From positions 1 to 27,000 of IMG/VR virus record IMGVR_UViG_3300046491_000453: a DNA stretch of 27,000 nt; one strand, given 5' to 3'. Position 1 is the stretch's first letter; every line of letters begins with the position of its first letter. This document shows positions 3,211-27,000 of the stretch, piece after piece. The translations under genes and the position numbers were made by a program. The notes under the pieces were generated by a model. That model saw only the letters and a program-made list of their open reading frames with translations, made no database searches and was not told where the DNA came from. The DNA comes from a virus.

Positions 3211-3651
3211 TCAAGTCTTGCAAATGTAATTGAAAGCAGCTTCATAGGCCGACCCCGGTTCAAAATCGAATTGGGGCTTTTCAATGGAATCTCGCGAAGG
3301 TGCTAACGGTATTCCAATCACTTCCACTTCAGGGCCCACAAGGACTGTGTGCTTAAAGTATCTTGCCGAGGCACCTTGCATCGTGTGATGGACGCAGTCA
3401 AAATAAACCATCATTTGCGCTGATTGGTAAGTATCTCGCACAATATTATTGTGCTGCGGGGAAAGCCAATTGAACATAAACCAAGCTTTACGGACAGCCC
3501 CGCTACTGACCTTCGTTTTTTCCTGAACATAGACAAAGCCGCCGGGAAAGTCATTAGCACGTTCCCAACCTGGAGCAACATTGGCTGCATTGCCAGTCAT
3601 AGGCGCCAGTGTGCAAGAGAGAGTCAATGCTGCCATAAGTGCTATCTTCAT
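3211..3651 (-). CDS. Secreted protein, possibly surface-adhesin-E-like
   Basis: The 146-aa product has an N-terminal signal peptide (hydrophobic residues 3-17, probable cleavage after TGNAA near residue 23). The mature part has the layout W-x(n)-YV-x(n)-KVSSGAVRKAWFMFNW and then YFDCVHHTMQGASARYF. This resembles small periplasmic or surface proteins of the surface-adhesin protein E type common in Proteobacteria. Two cysteines (in FDC and YICKT) could form a disulfide. The start is supported by AAAGGA. It lies 30 nt downstream of the membrane-anchored 218-aa gene in the same direction, so the two are probably co-transcribed. A secreted protein in a phage suggests alteration of the host surface in the lysogen, which is inference. 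Confidence 0.55.
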   Translation of the reverse strand: MKIALMAALTLSCTLAPMTGNAANVAPGWERANDFPGGFVYVQEKTKVSSGAVRKAWFMFNWLSPQHNNIVRDTYQSAQMMVYFDCVHHTMQGASARYFKHTVLVGPEVEVIGIPLAPSRDSIEKPQFDFEPGSAYEAAFNYICKT

Positions 3652-4941: not shown

Positions 4942-5027
4942 CTCCCCAAACCTTGATCCCGAAAATGACATGCTGCCCTGCTTAGCTGCTAGGTGGTAGG
5001 TGGCATCAACCAAAAATTCGACTTACT

Positions 5028-5714
5028 TCAATTACTAGGCTTCGAATTCGCATGACGGTCACTGGACGGTAACTCGCTTTCGAAGTGTGCTCGCAACTCG
5101 GGAATCAGGGTGTGCATTCCAGGGTTGGTCACATACGAGTTGCGCCGGGTGTCAATAACGGACTGAAAATGTGTTATCAAATATCCTAGCTCGCCGTCAC
5201 CGGCCTCAATCTCGATACGAATCTCAGAAGCAAGCTTACATGCATTCAGCCCATAATAAGCCAGTCGCTCCTCCTCAAGTTCATAAGCCTCGTCCAAGCC
5301 TGCCCATAGTTGAAATTGCGTTTCGATCCATGAATTGCACTGTTCAAAGCGATTTGTGAGAGACTTTAATTTGGCAACGAAAGGGATAGGGAGTGCTGTC
5401 CAGTCGGGTTCTGGGCTGAACTCGAATAAAATACTCGATAGTCCATCAAACACCGAGCTGTCATGCTCAGTACGATAACGTTCAATCCCAATTCCGATGT
5501 CATAATGCCGCTCATTGCATTGTCTCGCAAAGCCTTCGAGTTGGAGCACGAGCGCAAGGTACACATGACCGACTTTCTGAGCTTCCTTCGCCGCCTCCTT
5601 TTTACGTTCGCCCCATTTTGCATACGCATTCCAACCGACATTCACGACAGCGCTGATGACTGCACTGGACATGATGAGTGTAAGGGCACTGACGTCCTGT
5701 GATCCTGTTGCCAT
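5028..5714 (-). CDS. Membrane-anchored helical protein (228 aa)
   Basis: The start is placed at the ATG at 5714 (protein begins MATGSQDV). The longer open frame adds a basic stretch that overlaps the ribosome binding region (GAGGGAAACGTAAAGGA). Residues 8-27 form one membrane segment, followed by a charged coiled-coil-like stretch (GERKKEAAKEAQ) and about 180 helical, acidic residues with EPDWTALP near the middle. This arrangement is typical of a widespread group of unnamed bacterial proteins with one N-terminal anchor and a cytoplasmic helical domain. It is the last gene of the leftward set starting at 7034. Its match in build to the 218-aa gene suggests related jobs. Confidence 0.6.
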   Translation of the reverse strand: MATGSQDVSALTLIMSSAVISAVVNVGWNAYAKWGERKKEAAKEAQKVGHVYLALVLQLEGFARQCNERHYDIGIGIERYRTEHDSSVFDGLSSILFEFSPEPDWTALPIPFVAKLKSLTNRFEQCNSWIETQFQLWAGLDEAYELEEERLAYYGLNACKLASEIRIEIEAGDGELGYLITHFQSVIDTRRNSYVTNPGMHTLIPELRAHFESELPSSDRHANSKPSN

Positions 5715-5751
5715 TCCTTTACGTTTCCCTCTTTTAAATGCTAGGCGAAGA

Positions 5752-6222
5752 TCAACGTATTCCTGCGGTCGCGCAGATAGCTGCAACGACGCTTTTGGAA
5801 TCCTTCAAACCAGCGGCTAGGTTGCCGTCATGTGCAGCCGACACATACGCGTCAATGTTGTTTACCGTTATTGTGCAGCCGTAACCAAAGTCATAGCGGC
5901 GGAGCTTATCCACTTTACTTTTCAACAGCTCTTGTGTTCCAGACTCTGCAATGGACATCAGTTCCTCCAAGTCACCAAGATGCTCAACCCTTGCAGATAG
6001 TTCCATCAAGAAACCTTCTGTGCTCGCTCTCAGCGTCGCATCGGAAGCCAACTTTAGGTTGTAGGCTTGCAATTTAGAGATTGCCTCGCTCAGTGCTTTT
6101 TTTTGCATTAAACGGTTCTCAGCATTGGCATTCGATGCAAAGCCCGCGCACACCAGCGCAAACGAAATAACAGCCACCAACTTTGCAGATGGAGAATCCA
6201 AATAATTGGGTAATTTATTCAT
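5752..6222 (-). CDS. Secreted/periplasmic 156-aa protein
   Basis: The N-terminal signal peptide has hydrophobic residues of about 14-29 and an AxA-type cleavage site in SNANA-ENR near residue 35. The mature part is helical, with heptad-like leucines and alanines, and ends in a small domain with two cysteines (YGCTITV and AAICATAG). The start follows the H-NS-like stop codon by 4 nt and has no ribosome binding site of its own, so translation is probably coupled to that gene. I do not recognise a family. The coupling to a DNA-binding protein is notable because the products act in different compartments. Confidence 0.6.
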   Translation of the reverse strand: MNKLPNYLDSPSAKLVAVISFALVCAGFASNANAENRLMQKKALSEAISKLQAYNLKLASDATLRASTEGFLMELSARVEHLGDLEELMSIAESGTQELLKSKVDKLRRYDFGYGCTITVNNIDAYVSAAHDGNLAAGLKDSKSVVAAICATAGIR

Positions 6223-6226
6223 CGGA

Positions 6227-6541
6227 TCAGCCAGCTACTTTTGCGCTCGACAGGTCAGCACCAGATGCAACGAGTTCTTTCACCCATTTCGGCTGACGGC
6301 CACGACCAGACCATTCCTGTGCTGCATTGGCTGGGTTACGGAATTGCACTGCGACTTTGCTAGTGGGCTTACGGATTCCGGTTCCGATCAAATCTTTGAG
6401 AGGCATACCGAGTCGGTGAGCGATTGCGTAGATTTCATTGCGAGCAGCTTCAACATCTGCCTTCGCACGCTTCTTTTCTTCCTCCGTTACCCGCAACGAC
6501 AAATCCCGCAATTCAGCCAAGCTCAGTTTCGACAAATCCAT
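6227..6541 (-). CDS. H-NS-like nucleoid-associated DNA-binding protein
   Basis: The 104-aa product has the two-part build of the H-NS family. Residues 1-50 form an N-terminal coiled coil for self-association (LSLAELRDLSLRVTEEEKKRAK), followed by a linker and a C-terminal DNA-binding domain. That domain carries FRNPANAAQEWSGRGRQPKW, where GRGRQP is the minor-groove-binding loop. The form with WSGRGRQPKW is typical of betaproteobacterial members. AGGAGGG lies 6 nt before the start. Family members bind AT-rich DNA and silence foreign genes. A phage copy could substitute for, or interfere with, the host protein, or control the accessory genes around it. It lies in a leftward operon, 4 nt from the next gene. 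Confidence 0.88.
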   Translation of the reverse strand: MDLSKLSLAELRDLSLRVTEEEKKRAKADVEAARNEIYAIAHRLGMPLKDLIGTGIRKPTSKVAVQFRNPANAAQEWSGRGRQPKWVKELVASGADLSSAKVAG

Positions 6542-7085: not shown

Positions 7086-7487
7086 GTGGAAGACAGCAAT
7101 AAACCGACCAAGGCGGTCGCGGAGATCAGCGCCGAAACGCTGACCAAGCTTGCAAGCAGAGAAGAAGACATTCGCCAAAGCGGATTGATCGACATTTTCG
7201 AACAGCACTTGCCAGCCATTCCAGCCGATTACGTGTTCAAGAACCGGGATCGCCAATTTGTCGCGGACGCACTCAATGTCGCGTTTGATCTGATTGGTGG
7301 CATACCGCGACTTGCGCAGTACGGCCATGAAAACCCGGGTGAGTTCTACAAGCTATACGCCCGTCTATTGCCGGAAGCGGAGAAGAAGGAGTCAGGTCCG
7401 GCAGTCGTGCAGGTATTCCACAACGTGCCTGCTTCCGCGCTAGACATGGGCGATGTGGTTGAAATGGATGATGACGAAGATGAGTAA
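7086..7487 (+). CDS. Probable terminase small subunit
   Basis: The 133-aa acidic protein directly precedes the large terminase gene and overlaps it by a few bases, the usual place for the small subunit. That subunit recognises the phage genome and regulates the packaging motor. The segment HENPGEFYKLYARLLP matches the pattern I associate with small-terminase-like phage proteins. The C-terminus is strongly acidic (EMDDDEDE), which may contact the large subunit. The start is GTG, chosen because GAGG lies 7 nt upstream; there is no suitable ATG. The identification rests mainly on position and this segment. Confidence 0.65.
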   Translation: MEDSNKPTKAVAEISAETLTKLASREEDIRQSGLIDIFEQHLPAIPADYVFKNRDRQFVADALNVAFDLIGGIPRLAQYGHENPGEFYKLYARLLPEAEKKESGPAVVQVFHNVPASALDMGDVVEMDDDEDE

Positions 7488-17863: not shown

Positions 17864-19027
17864 ATGTCCAAAGGATCAGCACCACCAGCACCGGATTACA
17901 CAGGTGCAGCGCAAGCGACTGCCGCAGGCAACGCACAGAATTTAGCCGCCCAAACGGCAGCTAACCGTCCCGACCAATACACACCTTGGGGTTCATCCAC
18001 CTGGACAAGTACCAAAAATGCTGACGGAACTGATAAGTGGACGCAGAACTTATCATTGACGCCGCAAGAACAAGCGGCTTTGAACTCGCAGCAGCAAATT
18101 CAGCAAAACCAGTCGTCATTGGCTACGACCCTACAGCATCAAGTTGCTAACCAGATGGCGAACGGCTACAAGCCGCCTGACATGTCTTCCTATTTGGGTG
18201 GTGTAGGTGGAGTCAATAGCAATTTCCAAAACTTCAATCCGCCTTCTGGTCAGGTAAAAACCGATCCGAGCGCGTACACGGCGGCATCAGGGAACGTCAA
18301 TCTGAATGCGCCCAAGTATGATCAGGCGACAGCGGATGCAGGAACCCAAGCAGCCTACAAGGCAGCGACTGGCTTGCTTACCGATGGATGGCAGCAAGAC
18401 CAAAACAATCTCGATTCCAAACTGCGTATGCAGGGTCTTACGCCGGGAACCGAAGCGTACAACAACGCGATGCAGAACACGTTGCGCGTTCAAGGCCAGC
18501 AGCAAGACCAGTTGGCGAATCAAGCTGTCGTTACCGGCAATCAGCTCGCTAACAACAATTACGCGTCAGCGCTGGCTGGCTATCAGGCGGGCAACTCGGC
18601 ACAAAATCAAGCCTACTCGCAAGGACTGAGCAGCTTCGATGCAGCCAATGCGGCAAATGGTCAAGCCTACAGTCAGGCACTTGGGACATACGGCGTAAAC
18701 CAGCAAGCTATTCAAAACAGCAATGCTGCCCAGCAGCAGTCCTATTCCCAGGCGATGCAGAAATACCAAACTGCTTACGCAAATGCATACCAGGACTACT
18801 TGCAGCCGTTGAACAGCATGAATGCTGTGATGTCTGGACAGCAGGTTAACGCGCCAACGATGCCTGGCTTTGCGTCGTCGGGTTACTCGCCCGGTGCGGA
18901 TTATTCGGGAGCAGCCAGCGCGACAGGACAATACAACTCTGGTGTCGCTGCACAAAACAGTGCGAATGCGAGTTCGACCATGGGTGGCGTGGGCGCGCTG
19001 GCGATGGCGGCGGCGGTCGCATTCTAA
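17864..19027 (+). CDS. Probable internal virion (ejection) protein, Gln/Ala-rich
   Basis: The 387-aa protein has GGAAGGA before the start. It begins MSKGSAPPAPDYTGAAQATAAGNAQNLAAQ and contains PWGSSTWTSTKNADGTDKWTQNLSLTPQEQAAL, a pattern I associate with a protein found beside ejection genes of many short-tailed phages. Residues of about 200-310 carry imperfect repeats of the type QAYSQ-L-x-x-Y within a Gln/Asn/Ala-rich helical stretch. The last 20 residues are Ala/Gly-rich and hydrophobic (STMGGVGALAMAAAVAF), which could insert in a membrane during DNA delivery. The stop codon overlaps the next start (TAATG). Confidence 0.62.
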   Translation: MSKGSAPPAPDYTGAAQATAAGNAQNLAAQTAANRPDQYTPWGSSTWTSTKNADGTDKWTQNLSLTPQEQAALNSQQQIQQNQSSLATTLQHQVANQMANGYKPPDMSSYLGGVGGVNSNFQNFNPPSGQVKTDPSAYTAASGNVNLNAPKYDQATADAGTQAAYKAATGLLTDGWQQDQNNLDSKLRMQGLTPGTEAYNNAMQNTLRVQGQQQDQLANQAVVTGNQLANNNYASALAGYQAGNSAQNQAYSQGLSSFDAANAANGQAYSQALGTYGVNQQAIQNSNAAQQQSYSQAMQKYQTAYANAYQDYLQPLNSMNAVMSGQQVNAPTMPGFASSGYSPGADYSGAASATGQYNSGVAAQNSANASSTMGGVGALAMAAAVAF

Positions 19028-19782
19028 TGGCAAACGTGGACTTCAACTTCGTGATCGATGCCCATAAGCGCATCGCTGTTCAGTTCAGCGGTGGCCGCGA
19101 TAGCTTGGCTTTGCTGCTTGCCTTGCGCCCGTATTGGGATCGCATCACGGTCTACTACACGAACAGCGGCGACGCGTATCCAGAAACCCAAGCACTCATC
19201 GACGCGGTGAAAAACGTCGTGCCGCACTTCGTTGAAATTATGGGGCGCGTTAACGAGGTTCATGAGCAGATGGGCTGGCCCAGTGATGTCATGCAGCCGG
19301 GTACTGGCTTTCAGTTTGCCCGCGAAGACATTGACGGCTATGTGCCGCTGATCGACCGCCACAACTGCTGCTACCACTCGATTATGGTTCCCATGCACGA
19401 GCGCATGAAAGCTGACGGCATCACGTTGCTGATGCGCGGACAGCGTGATCAAGATAGCACCAAAAGCCATGTCGTGAATGGATCGGTAATCGAAGGCATC
19501 CAACTGCTATTTCCGATAGCCCATTGGACAACGGCAGATGTCGAAAAGTGCATAGTGGATCACGGCATTCCGCTGCCGCCGTTCTATGCCGCAGGTATGA
19601 CATCCACGCCCGACTGTATGCGCTGCACGGCATGGCTTGAACACGGTGCCCATAAATACCTTGCAGTGAACCATCCAGAAGTTGCGTCCGAAGTGAATGC
19701 GCGTCTGATAAAAATAAGAGTGGTCGTTGAGCCGTTTATTCGTCGTCTCAATGTAGCACAGGAGACATTGAATGACAAATAA
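19027..19782 (+). CDS. PP-loop ATPase of the PAPS-reductase / DndC-like family
   Basis: Residues 21-26 are SGGRDS, the ATP-binding PP-loop shared by PAPS/APS reductases and related ATP pyrophosphatases. A double cysteine C114-C115 and a C197-M-R-C200 pair, 81 residues apart, match the CC-x(about 80)-CxxC arrangement that binds an iron-sulfur cluster in APS reductases and related enzymes. The C-terminal catalytic Cys motif of sulfonucleotide reductases (ECGLH-like) is absent, with no Cys after residue 200. A sulfur-transfer or nucleotide-modifying role (as in DndC-like proteins) therefore seems likelier than sulfate reduction. Such genes recur in the late regions of several short-tailed phages, with unproven roles. 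The start is coupled to the previous stop codon, and the gene overlaps the next by 11 nt. Confidence 0.82.
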   Translation: MANVDFNFVIDAHKRIAVQFSGGRDSLALLLALRPYWDRITVYYTNSGDAYPETQALIDAVKNVVPHFVEIMGRVNEVHEQMGWPSDVMQPGTGFQFAREDIDGYVPLIDRHNCCYHSIMVPMHERMKADGITLLMRGQRDQDSTKSHVVNGSVIEGIQLLFPIAHWTTADVEKCIVDHGIPLPPFYAAGMTSTPDCMRCTAWLEHGAHKYLAVNHPEVASEVNARLIKIRVVVEPFIRRLNVAQETLNDK

Positions 19783-25931: not shown

Positions 25932-26159
25932 ATGGACTTTTTCAAACACATCATCACTGGCATCGACAATCAGACTGTCGATGTCGCCCGCGTACTCTGG
26001 ATCATAGGCGCGCTGTCGTTCCTTGGCTTATCGGCTTACGACACCTACAAGTCAGGGCATTTCGACATGGCTAACTTCGCACTCGGGTATACGGGCTTGC
26101 TGACTGGTGGTGCGGCGAGCGTGCGGATCAAAGCAATCACGGAGCCTGACCCCAAATGA
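25932..26159 (+). CDS. Small two-span membrane protein, candidate holin
   Basis: The 75-aa product has two hydrophobic segments (about residues 18-36, ARVLWIIGALSFLGLSAY; and 47-65, MANFALGYTGLLTGGAAS) and charged ends. It sits right after the fibre genes, where lysis genes often begin, and overlaps the next small membrane protein by 4 nt (ATGA). Two-span proteins of this size are typical of class II holins, which form membrane pores that let endolysin out. No endolysin is found next to it; it may be encoded beyond the window. Confidence 0.6.
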   Translation: MDFFKHIITGIDNQTVDVARVLWIIGALSFLGLSAYDTYKSGHFDMANFALGYTGLLTGGAASVRIKAITEPDPK

Positions 26160-26356
26160 GCAATGAAGTAATAGCAGCAGTTAAACATACCCTAGACGTT
26201 ATCGCAGCGAGTGTGACCGTGCTTACAATCATCAAGGTCTTACCAGCGATCACGGCTGGTCTTGCGGCAATCTGGTATGTGATGGGGCTGTATGAAAAGA
26301 TTACAGGTCGGGCTTTCAGCGAGTCCCGTTTCGCTCGATTCCTGACCGGCAGGTAA
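26156..26356 (+). CDS. Small membrane protein, second candidate holin/antiholin
   Basis: The 66-aa product has a hydrophobic stretch from about residue 12 to 46 (VIAASVTVLTIIKVLPAITAGLAAIWYVMGLY), enough for one long or two short membrane spans. It ends in a basic tail with SESRFARFLTGR. It is coupled to the preceding candidate holin by a 4-nt overlap. Paired small membrane proteins after the fibre genes are commonly a holin with its inhibitor or partner. The 584-bp gene-free stretch starts directly after its stop codon. Confidence 0.6.
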   Translation: MSNEVIAAVKHTLDVIAASVTVLTIIKVLPAITAGLAAIWYVMGLYEKITGRAFSESRFARFLTGR

Positions 26357-26564
26357 AAGGCAGCTCATGGCTGAATAGGTCGGGGCTTTTTTACGTCTGT
26401 AGATTTTGCATCTGGCCGATCCGTGCCGCATAGGCTCTGGCTTTCCCATCGAGGAAATCGCTCTCCTGTACCACTACACGCGAAATCCCCGATTATCAGG
26501 TATTTCATGCGCTGCTCGCGGCGCGTTCATACTCTCAGTGTTTATCAACCATCTTCTGGGAAAT
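26357..26564. other. Gene-free stretch after the candidate holins
   Basis: No credible gene. A T-run at 26387-26392 follows GGTCGGGGC, but only a weak 5-bp stem with a G-U pair (AGCTC 26362-26366 with GGGCT 26383-26387) can be drawn, so termination here is uncertain. The rest, to about 26564, shows nothing I can interpret. Confidence 0.35.
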
Positions 26565-26570
26565 AGCGTA

Positions 26571-26812
26571 GCGACCTAATCAATTACGGCTTCTGGTGTT
26601 TGATTTTCTTCCAGGTGGCGAGCCGGGACGTAGCGAAGCGAAGTAAGGCCGCTGGAACGAAGTGACTTCTGGGTTTTGAAAAGGAAATTGGCTTCGGCGA
26701 AAGCGACTTCAATGCCAGGTAACTGAGCGGCAGCGAAGTTCGGCATTGAAGTCCCTCGACACCTGGAGCGAAGCGAACAGGTGTTGAGTGTCATTGATTA
26801 CGAAGGAATCGC
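26571..26812 (+). ncRNA. Candidate structured RNA (or ssDNA) element
   Basis: Long-range closing helix: TAATCAAT (26577-26584) with ATTGATTA (26793-26800), extended by CC/GG and GCGA (26571-26574)/TCGC (26809-26812) across two one-sided bulges. Inside it lie CCAG-TGGC (26611-26619, one bulge) with GCCGCTGG (26648-26655), the perfect 12-bp GACTTCAATGCC (26705-26716) with GGCATTGAAGTC (26742-26753), and the 11-bp CTCGACACCTG (26755-26765) with CAGGTGTTGAG (26778-26788, one G-U). No gene overlaps it. The helices were found by eye; whether it acts as RNA or DNA is unknown. Confidence 0.5.
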
Positions 26813-26859
26813 CAAGAATCGCCAAGAATTCTGTTGAGAGAAATAGCTAGTAGCGAAGC
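26633..26859 (+). repeat. Three copies of GCGAAGC
   Basis: GCGAAGC at 26633-26639, 26768-26774 and 26853-26859. The first and third are embedded in the longer GTAGCGAAGCGAARTAAG, and the second forms the loop of the 11-bp hairpin. As single-stranded DNA, GCGAAGC is known to form an unusually stable mini-hairpin. Confidence 0.7.
26808..26827 (+). repeat. Tandem 10-bp repeat
   Basis: ATCGCCAAGA occurs twice head to tail. The TCGC of either copy could pair with GCGA at 26571-26574. Confidence 0.6.
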
Positions 26860-26883
26860 GAAATAAGAATAACGTCGAGGGTG

Positions 26884-26889
26884 TAAATA
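26884..26889 (+). promoter_or_regulatory. TAAATA motif before the last gene
   Basis: GGGTGTAAATAAT, 51 nt before the ATG at 26941. A transcript starting shortly downstream would begin at the start-codon hairpin at 26900-26949. Confidence 0.42.
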
Positions 26890-26899
26890 ATATTGTGTA

Positions 26900-26949
26900 A
26901 ACGGTCATTTGGCAGGAAACTGCCAGCTCAAGGAGAAATGATGACCGTT
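26900..26949 (+). promoter_or_regulatory. Hairpin enclosing the ribosome binding site and start codon
   Basis: AACGGTCAT (26900-26908) pairs perfectly over 9 bp with ATGACCGTT (26941-26949), which includes the start codon. Inside it lies a 6-bp hairpin TGGCAG-GAAA-CTGCCA (26910-26925) with a GNRA tetraloop, followed by the ribosome binding site AAGGAG. It looks like a translational operator. Confidence 0.5.
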
Positions 26950-27000
26950 GTAAAGCGTAATAAGCGGGCCAAGCCCGATCCAGAACTGCTCAAATTGGCC
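26941..27000 (+). CDS. Start of an unrecognised gene, cut by the window end
   Basis: Only 20 codons are visible, beginning MTVVKRNKRAKPDPELLKLA, a basic, hydrophilic N-terminus. The start is well supported by AAGGAG 6 nt upstream. The ATG is predicted to be sequestered in a 9-bp helix with the leader, so expression may be controlled at translation. Family unknown. Confidence 0.6.
   Translation, partial: MTVVKRNKRAKPDPELLKLA

Follow-up and report, generated by a model that had tools for sequence, protein, structure and literature searches.

A conserved noncoding row of hairpins in Mx8-like prophages, possibly acting as folded single-stranded DNA

In integron attC sites and at the ends of IS200-IS605 elements, one folded DNA strand carries the function. 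The hairpin element described here, found in a 27-kb stretch of a virus record (the window), differs from these in that no recombinase of such a type was identified beside it. REP and BIME sequences are clustered, imperfect intergenic palindromes, and their transposases recognise the single-strand fold (PMC8266576, PMC3733652). The element is likewise a cluster of imperfect intergenic palindromes; unlike them, it has conserved linkers between its hairpins, and several different stems are kept in order. REP elements also occur in many copies per genome and carry a conserved GTAG or CGTC tag at the palindrome foot, whereas the hairpin element occurs once per phage record, with stems that all differ, and lacks a conserved tag: in the window GTAG stands before two of the tips (26630 and 26850), and the relatives lack it there.

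The promoter hairpins of the phage N4 virion RNA polymerase combine a G..A triloop closed by a C-G pair with a required sheared G-A pair, and they are extruded by supercoiling and stable on one strand only (PMC4496689). N4 offers a precedent for strand-specific loops of the kind found here: the element shares the C-G closed G..A loop and the strand specificity. It is set apart by having more than one long hairpin, by tetraloops, and by tandem G-A mismatches. Nothing shows the element to be an N4-type promoter, and no giant virion RNA polymerase gene was found in the 27 kb of this partial record, whose longest ORF has 728 aa. REP clusters and N4 hairpins could nevertheless resemble the element in their mode of action. 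ROOL and GOLLD are structured noncoding elements of prophages (PMC12286853). Compared with these, the element is much shorter, has no adjoining tRNA genes, matches no Rfam family, and does not conserve a closed architecture.

Location and hairpins of the element

The window encodes a terminase, a portal protein, and a major capsid protein with 47% identity to the capsids of phages Mx9 and Mx8. Its source is a temperate phage of the Mx8-like prophage group, and the element adjoins the last late genes: two small ORFs (25932-26159 and 26156-26356) are followed by a gene-free gap containing the hairpins, whose plus strand is the late-gene strand. Among the structural genes, 19027-19782 has by eye the look of a phosphoadenosine-phosphosulfate-reductase-type gene (SGGRDSLALL motif). 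The element spans about 300 bases, with strong similarity to relatives at 26588-26819 and weaker similarity over about 26563-26876. An IS256-family element, overlooked in the first description, begins at 26876 and cuts off the window copy, which is why that copy stops there and perhaps why the contig ends. Positions 26876-27000 hold the left end and first codons of this insertion sequence, inside which the contig ends; it is 91% identical to a copy on a Massilia putida plasmid, and this match, the sole pointer to the host, hints at a Massilia-like bacterium. The features of the element are as follows.

26563..26875, plus strand: whole conserved noncoding element as preserved in the window, from blastn alignments and block identities with the four distinct relatives
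26564..26574, plus strand: mini-hairpin tip TAGCGTAGCGA with a GTA triloop, from the motif scan
26577..26584, plus strand: 5' arm of the closing helix, which pairs with 26793-26800 and is not conserved among relatives
26611..26655, plus strand: hairpin A, with an invariant bulged base of CCA/GCG/GCC with GGC/CGC/TGG
26655..26665, plus strand: mini-hairpin D, GAACGAAGTGA, with a GCA loop in three relatives
26697..26704, plus strand: mini-hairpin E, GCGAAAGC, with a GAAA loop
26705..26753, plus strand: hairpin B, with 12 bp, an internal loop, ACT/AGT, tandem GA, a GC stem, and a GGCA loop (z about -5)
26755..26788, plus strand: hairpin C, with 11 bp, tandem GA, a GC stem, and a GAA loop (GATA or GACA in relatives)
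26793..26800, plus strand: 3' arm of the closing helix, which is not conserved
26851..26861, plus strand: mini-hairpin tip TAGCGAAGCGA, absent from relatives

The gap is indeed without a gene, as originally predicted: there is no conserved ORF, and stops and indels exclude a conserved protein. A 72-aa minus-strand ORF (26576-26794) was considered as a gene and rejected, its frame running into stops in relatives L036, L039, and L040. Equally, no site combining a GC-rich hairpin with a T-run lies at 26300-27000, in keeping with the earlier view that the hairpins are not a terminator, and the plus strand of the same interval contains no consensus promoter-like site. The element had been said to match no nameable RNA class, and none of 4227 Rfam families, ROOL and GOLLD included, matches at gathering score. 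A search for tRNA and tmRNA genes found none. Elsewhere in the window, 3336-3407 gives a sub-threshold match to the Rfam family iscRS, scoring 26.7 bits where the gathering cutoff is 40, and is probably a chance hit.

The individual hairpins hold up better than the architecture proposed for them. The perfect 12-bp hairpin is confirmed as B, with arms at 26705-26716 and 26742-26753, and the 27 kb has just one other perfect inverted repeat whose arms reach 12 or more, where a Markov model expects 0.1 such repeats. The window's other strong inverted repeat is a perfect hairpin, GGGCACTTGAG.., at 1749-1782, which is followed by a T-run and is evidently an intrinsic terminator. Hairpin B is nearly invariant among relatives, with a GACA loop in some and a GA/GA double mismatch in the stem of three. 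The predicted 11-bp hairpin is found at 26755-26788 with one G-T pair among its pairs; on the plus strand the wobbles of helix C are G-T, and their minus-strand counterparts would be C-A. The bulged hairpin A (CCA..GCG.GCC / GGCCGCTGG) is present with nine pairs and bulges, but its energy alone is no better than that of shuffled sequence (z = +0.16). Its base is invariant, and its tip, which carries a motif at 26631-26641 described below, differs between phages.

Hairpins B and C together fold significantly as RNA (z = -5.9, with 0/200 shuffles equally good) and as DNA (z = -5.1 against shuffles). With standard DNA energies the minus strand does well too (z = -5.3). Across the whole 321 nt the fold is not convincing against shuffles, with z = -1.08 on the plus strand (13/100 shuffles as good) and z = -1.58 on the minus strand (5/100). 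The original prediction nested four helices inside one closed, multi-branch RNA junction. The sequence pairing of its 8-bp closing helix (TAATCAAT at 26577-26584 with ATTGATTA at 26793-26800) does exist in the window, but not as a conserved part of a junction: the minimum-free-energy fold does not use it, and the 5' arm has a different sequence in all relatives. Since this helix is private to the window, the closed junction is unsupported. An RNAalifold consensus of the whole element was also discarded, its long-range helices being broken in several rows and its covariation term unfavourable.

Relatives and the pattern of sequence change

A search with the 75-aa ORF returned ten loci, and pattern scans located the element in five of those IMG/VR contigs, all related Mx8-like prophages (L013/L035, L015/L036, L014/L037, L016/L040, and L012/L039). 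L035 and L036 are near-identical here, leaving four distinct relatives. The element is 86-87% identical to these, compared with 82-85% for the adjoining 66-aa gene. Upstream sequence differs among the window, L036/L040, L037, and L039, giving the element a sharp left edge and implying that any promoter there is not common either; L040 diverges from L036/L037 immediately after the element.

Helix C supplies the evidence of compensatory change. Compared with the relatives, two of its pairs have both bases substituted and two have a single base substituted; all nine scored pairs form throughout, and the tenth becomes C-A in the relatives. These figures come from five sequences in an alignment fitted to the model, one sequence against four, and 23/500 shuffles equal them. 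A plain MAFFT alignment, in which the window row is misaligned, gives no helix C covariation, and the structure-fitted recount leans towards structure. What endures of the first proposal is a structured noncoding element that is conserved among related phages and shows a measure of compensatory change in helix C; the single closed fold does not.

Blastn found no match to the element in annotated phages or plasmids, and its core pattern, which can miss diverged copies, was absent from 84,980 genomes. When viral and genome contigs were scanned with broader patterns, everything outside the five contigs above proved to be unrelated sequence that lacked the remainder of the element. A covariance model found no copy in the distant relatives L163-L166. 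A sample of 369 genomes from the class that includes Pseudomonas gave a single weak hit (28 bits).

The surroundings have other conserved noncoding sequence. One block (window 26425-26501, L036 5781-5856) precedes the element in the window, whereas relatives have it some 900 nt beyond the element on the downstream side, so the region has been rearranged. Another long conserved noncoding stretch lies downstream of the element (L036 about 5000-5880, L037 about 5560-6440, L040 about 5560-5940) and is partly replaced by unrelated sequence in L040. It contains a terminator-like hairpin at L036 5472-5506 and L040 5499-5535, and the overlapping loci yield no Rfam match.

A shared hairpin tip and the readings it allows

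The hairpins share a tip motif, [A/G/T]A-RC-GN(1-2)A-GY-GA, consisting of tandem G-A mismatches, a 2-bp stem (GC or AC/GT), and a GNA or GNNA loop; this common tip and its strand bias are new here and were missed earlier. Six copies occur in the window, all on the plus strand and within the element, with none elsewhere in the 27 kb and 0.5 expected per strand, a count that is descriptive and no independent test, because the motif was first noticed inside the element and counted afterwards. Each of the four relatives has four or five tips within its element. With all six tips on the plus strand, one strand would fold rather than a symmetric cruciform, and since tips on the minus strand would have T-C mismatches and other loops, selection, if any, would act on the plus strand. 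The tandem G-A pairs are probably sheared.

Our preferred reading, with a probability of about 0.4, is that this is a conserved cis-acting noncoding element whose single-stranded plus strand forms a row of separate hairpins, most likely acting as DNA. Strands might separate through supercoil-driven extrusion, lagging-strand synthesis, or recombination, although the route by which a double-stranded DNA phage exposes its plus strand is conjecture. Once separated, the plus strand would retain its hairpins more readily than its complement, and the folded form might be recognised by a protein, as the N4 promoter hairpins are. We know of no protein that binds the element. The element sits where modules meet: its neighbours change on either side and an insertion sequence abuts it, which suggests that it takes part in DNA exchange or is exposed to it.

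Several loops of the element are of the GNYA type (GGCA, GACA, GATA) rather than GNRA. The sequences d(cGNNAg) and d(gCNNGc) are stable DNA tetraloop motifs (Nakano et al. 2002, as cited in PMC5090098), and the GNYA loops fit these better than they fit the GNRA loops of RNA. In other noncoding hairpins that have the tip and at least three outer pairs formed, the third loop base is likewise mostly a pyrimidine (18/26). The choice between DNA and RNA is close, and we slightly favour DNA because of the loop types, the strand-specific tips, and the lack of a shared promoter. The strong DNA fold of hairpins B and C and the plus-strand G-T wobbles of helix C also speak for it. Two results count against folded DNA, namely RNA energies at least as significant as DNA ones and a minus strand that also folds well as DNA, and the reading draws on only four distinct relatives.

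A structured RNA is a serious contender, though also short of even odds; it could be a noncoding RNA of the phage, or a late transcript read from the plus strand beyond the small late ORFs could have a structured 3' end here. The element lies on the late-gene strand, no terminator-like site separates it from the 66-aa ORF in the window, hairpins B and C fold strongly as RNA, and helix C keeps its pairing through two double changes. An RNA sits less easily with the absence of an Rfam match, the insignificant whole-region fold, the GNYA loops, and relatives without common upstream sequence.

Less likely is a group of intergenic palindromes akin to REP, or the decayed remains of a non-autonomous mobile element, either of which would do nothing for the phage and persist only because the relatives share a recent ancestor. 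Templated repair of quasi-palindromes can also yield compensatory changes, and the sharp left edge with differing flanks agrees with this reading. The tip itself is widespread, topping hairpins in numerous intergenic regions of viral contigs that are otherwise unrelated. About 100 further viral loci have pairs of the GNNA form, many outside ORFs of at least 90 aa and many being hairpins of unrelated sequence. Paired motifs are noncoding in 40/88 cases against 6/32 for a rearranged control (Fisher p = 0.01), three of the 40 being the element itself. A relic is nonetheless hard to reconcile with one copy per phage, different stems in fixed order without a dispersed repeat, conservation at least equal to that of the adjoining gene, and no conserved GTAG tag. 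Nothing favours the packaging site once suggested, and the terminase gene is about 18 kb away, at 7453.

If confirmed, the element would be a compact, strand-specific folded element directly testable in induced lysogens. More speculative, and quite improbable in our estimate, is a dedicated folded single-stranded platform in a double-stranded DNA phage, with hairpins that share a tip code (tandem sheared G-A plus a GNA/GNNA loop). The same code recurs in intergenic palindromes across many genomes with no relation to one another, which on this reading would mean that one protein or process recognises them all. Simple probing could settle whether this recurring hairpin-tip design in intergenic DNA has meaning at the DNA or the RNA level. 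Intergenic hairpins with a GAGC-GNNA-GCGA tip occur in L057, L074, L093, L132, L140, L148, and others, which are unrelated viral contigs.
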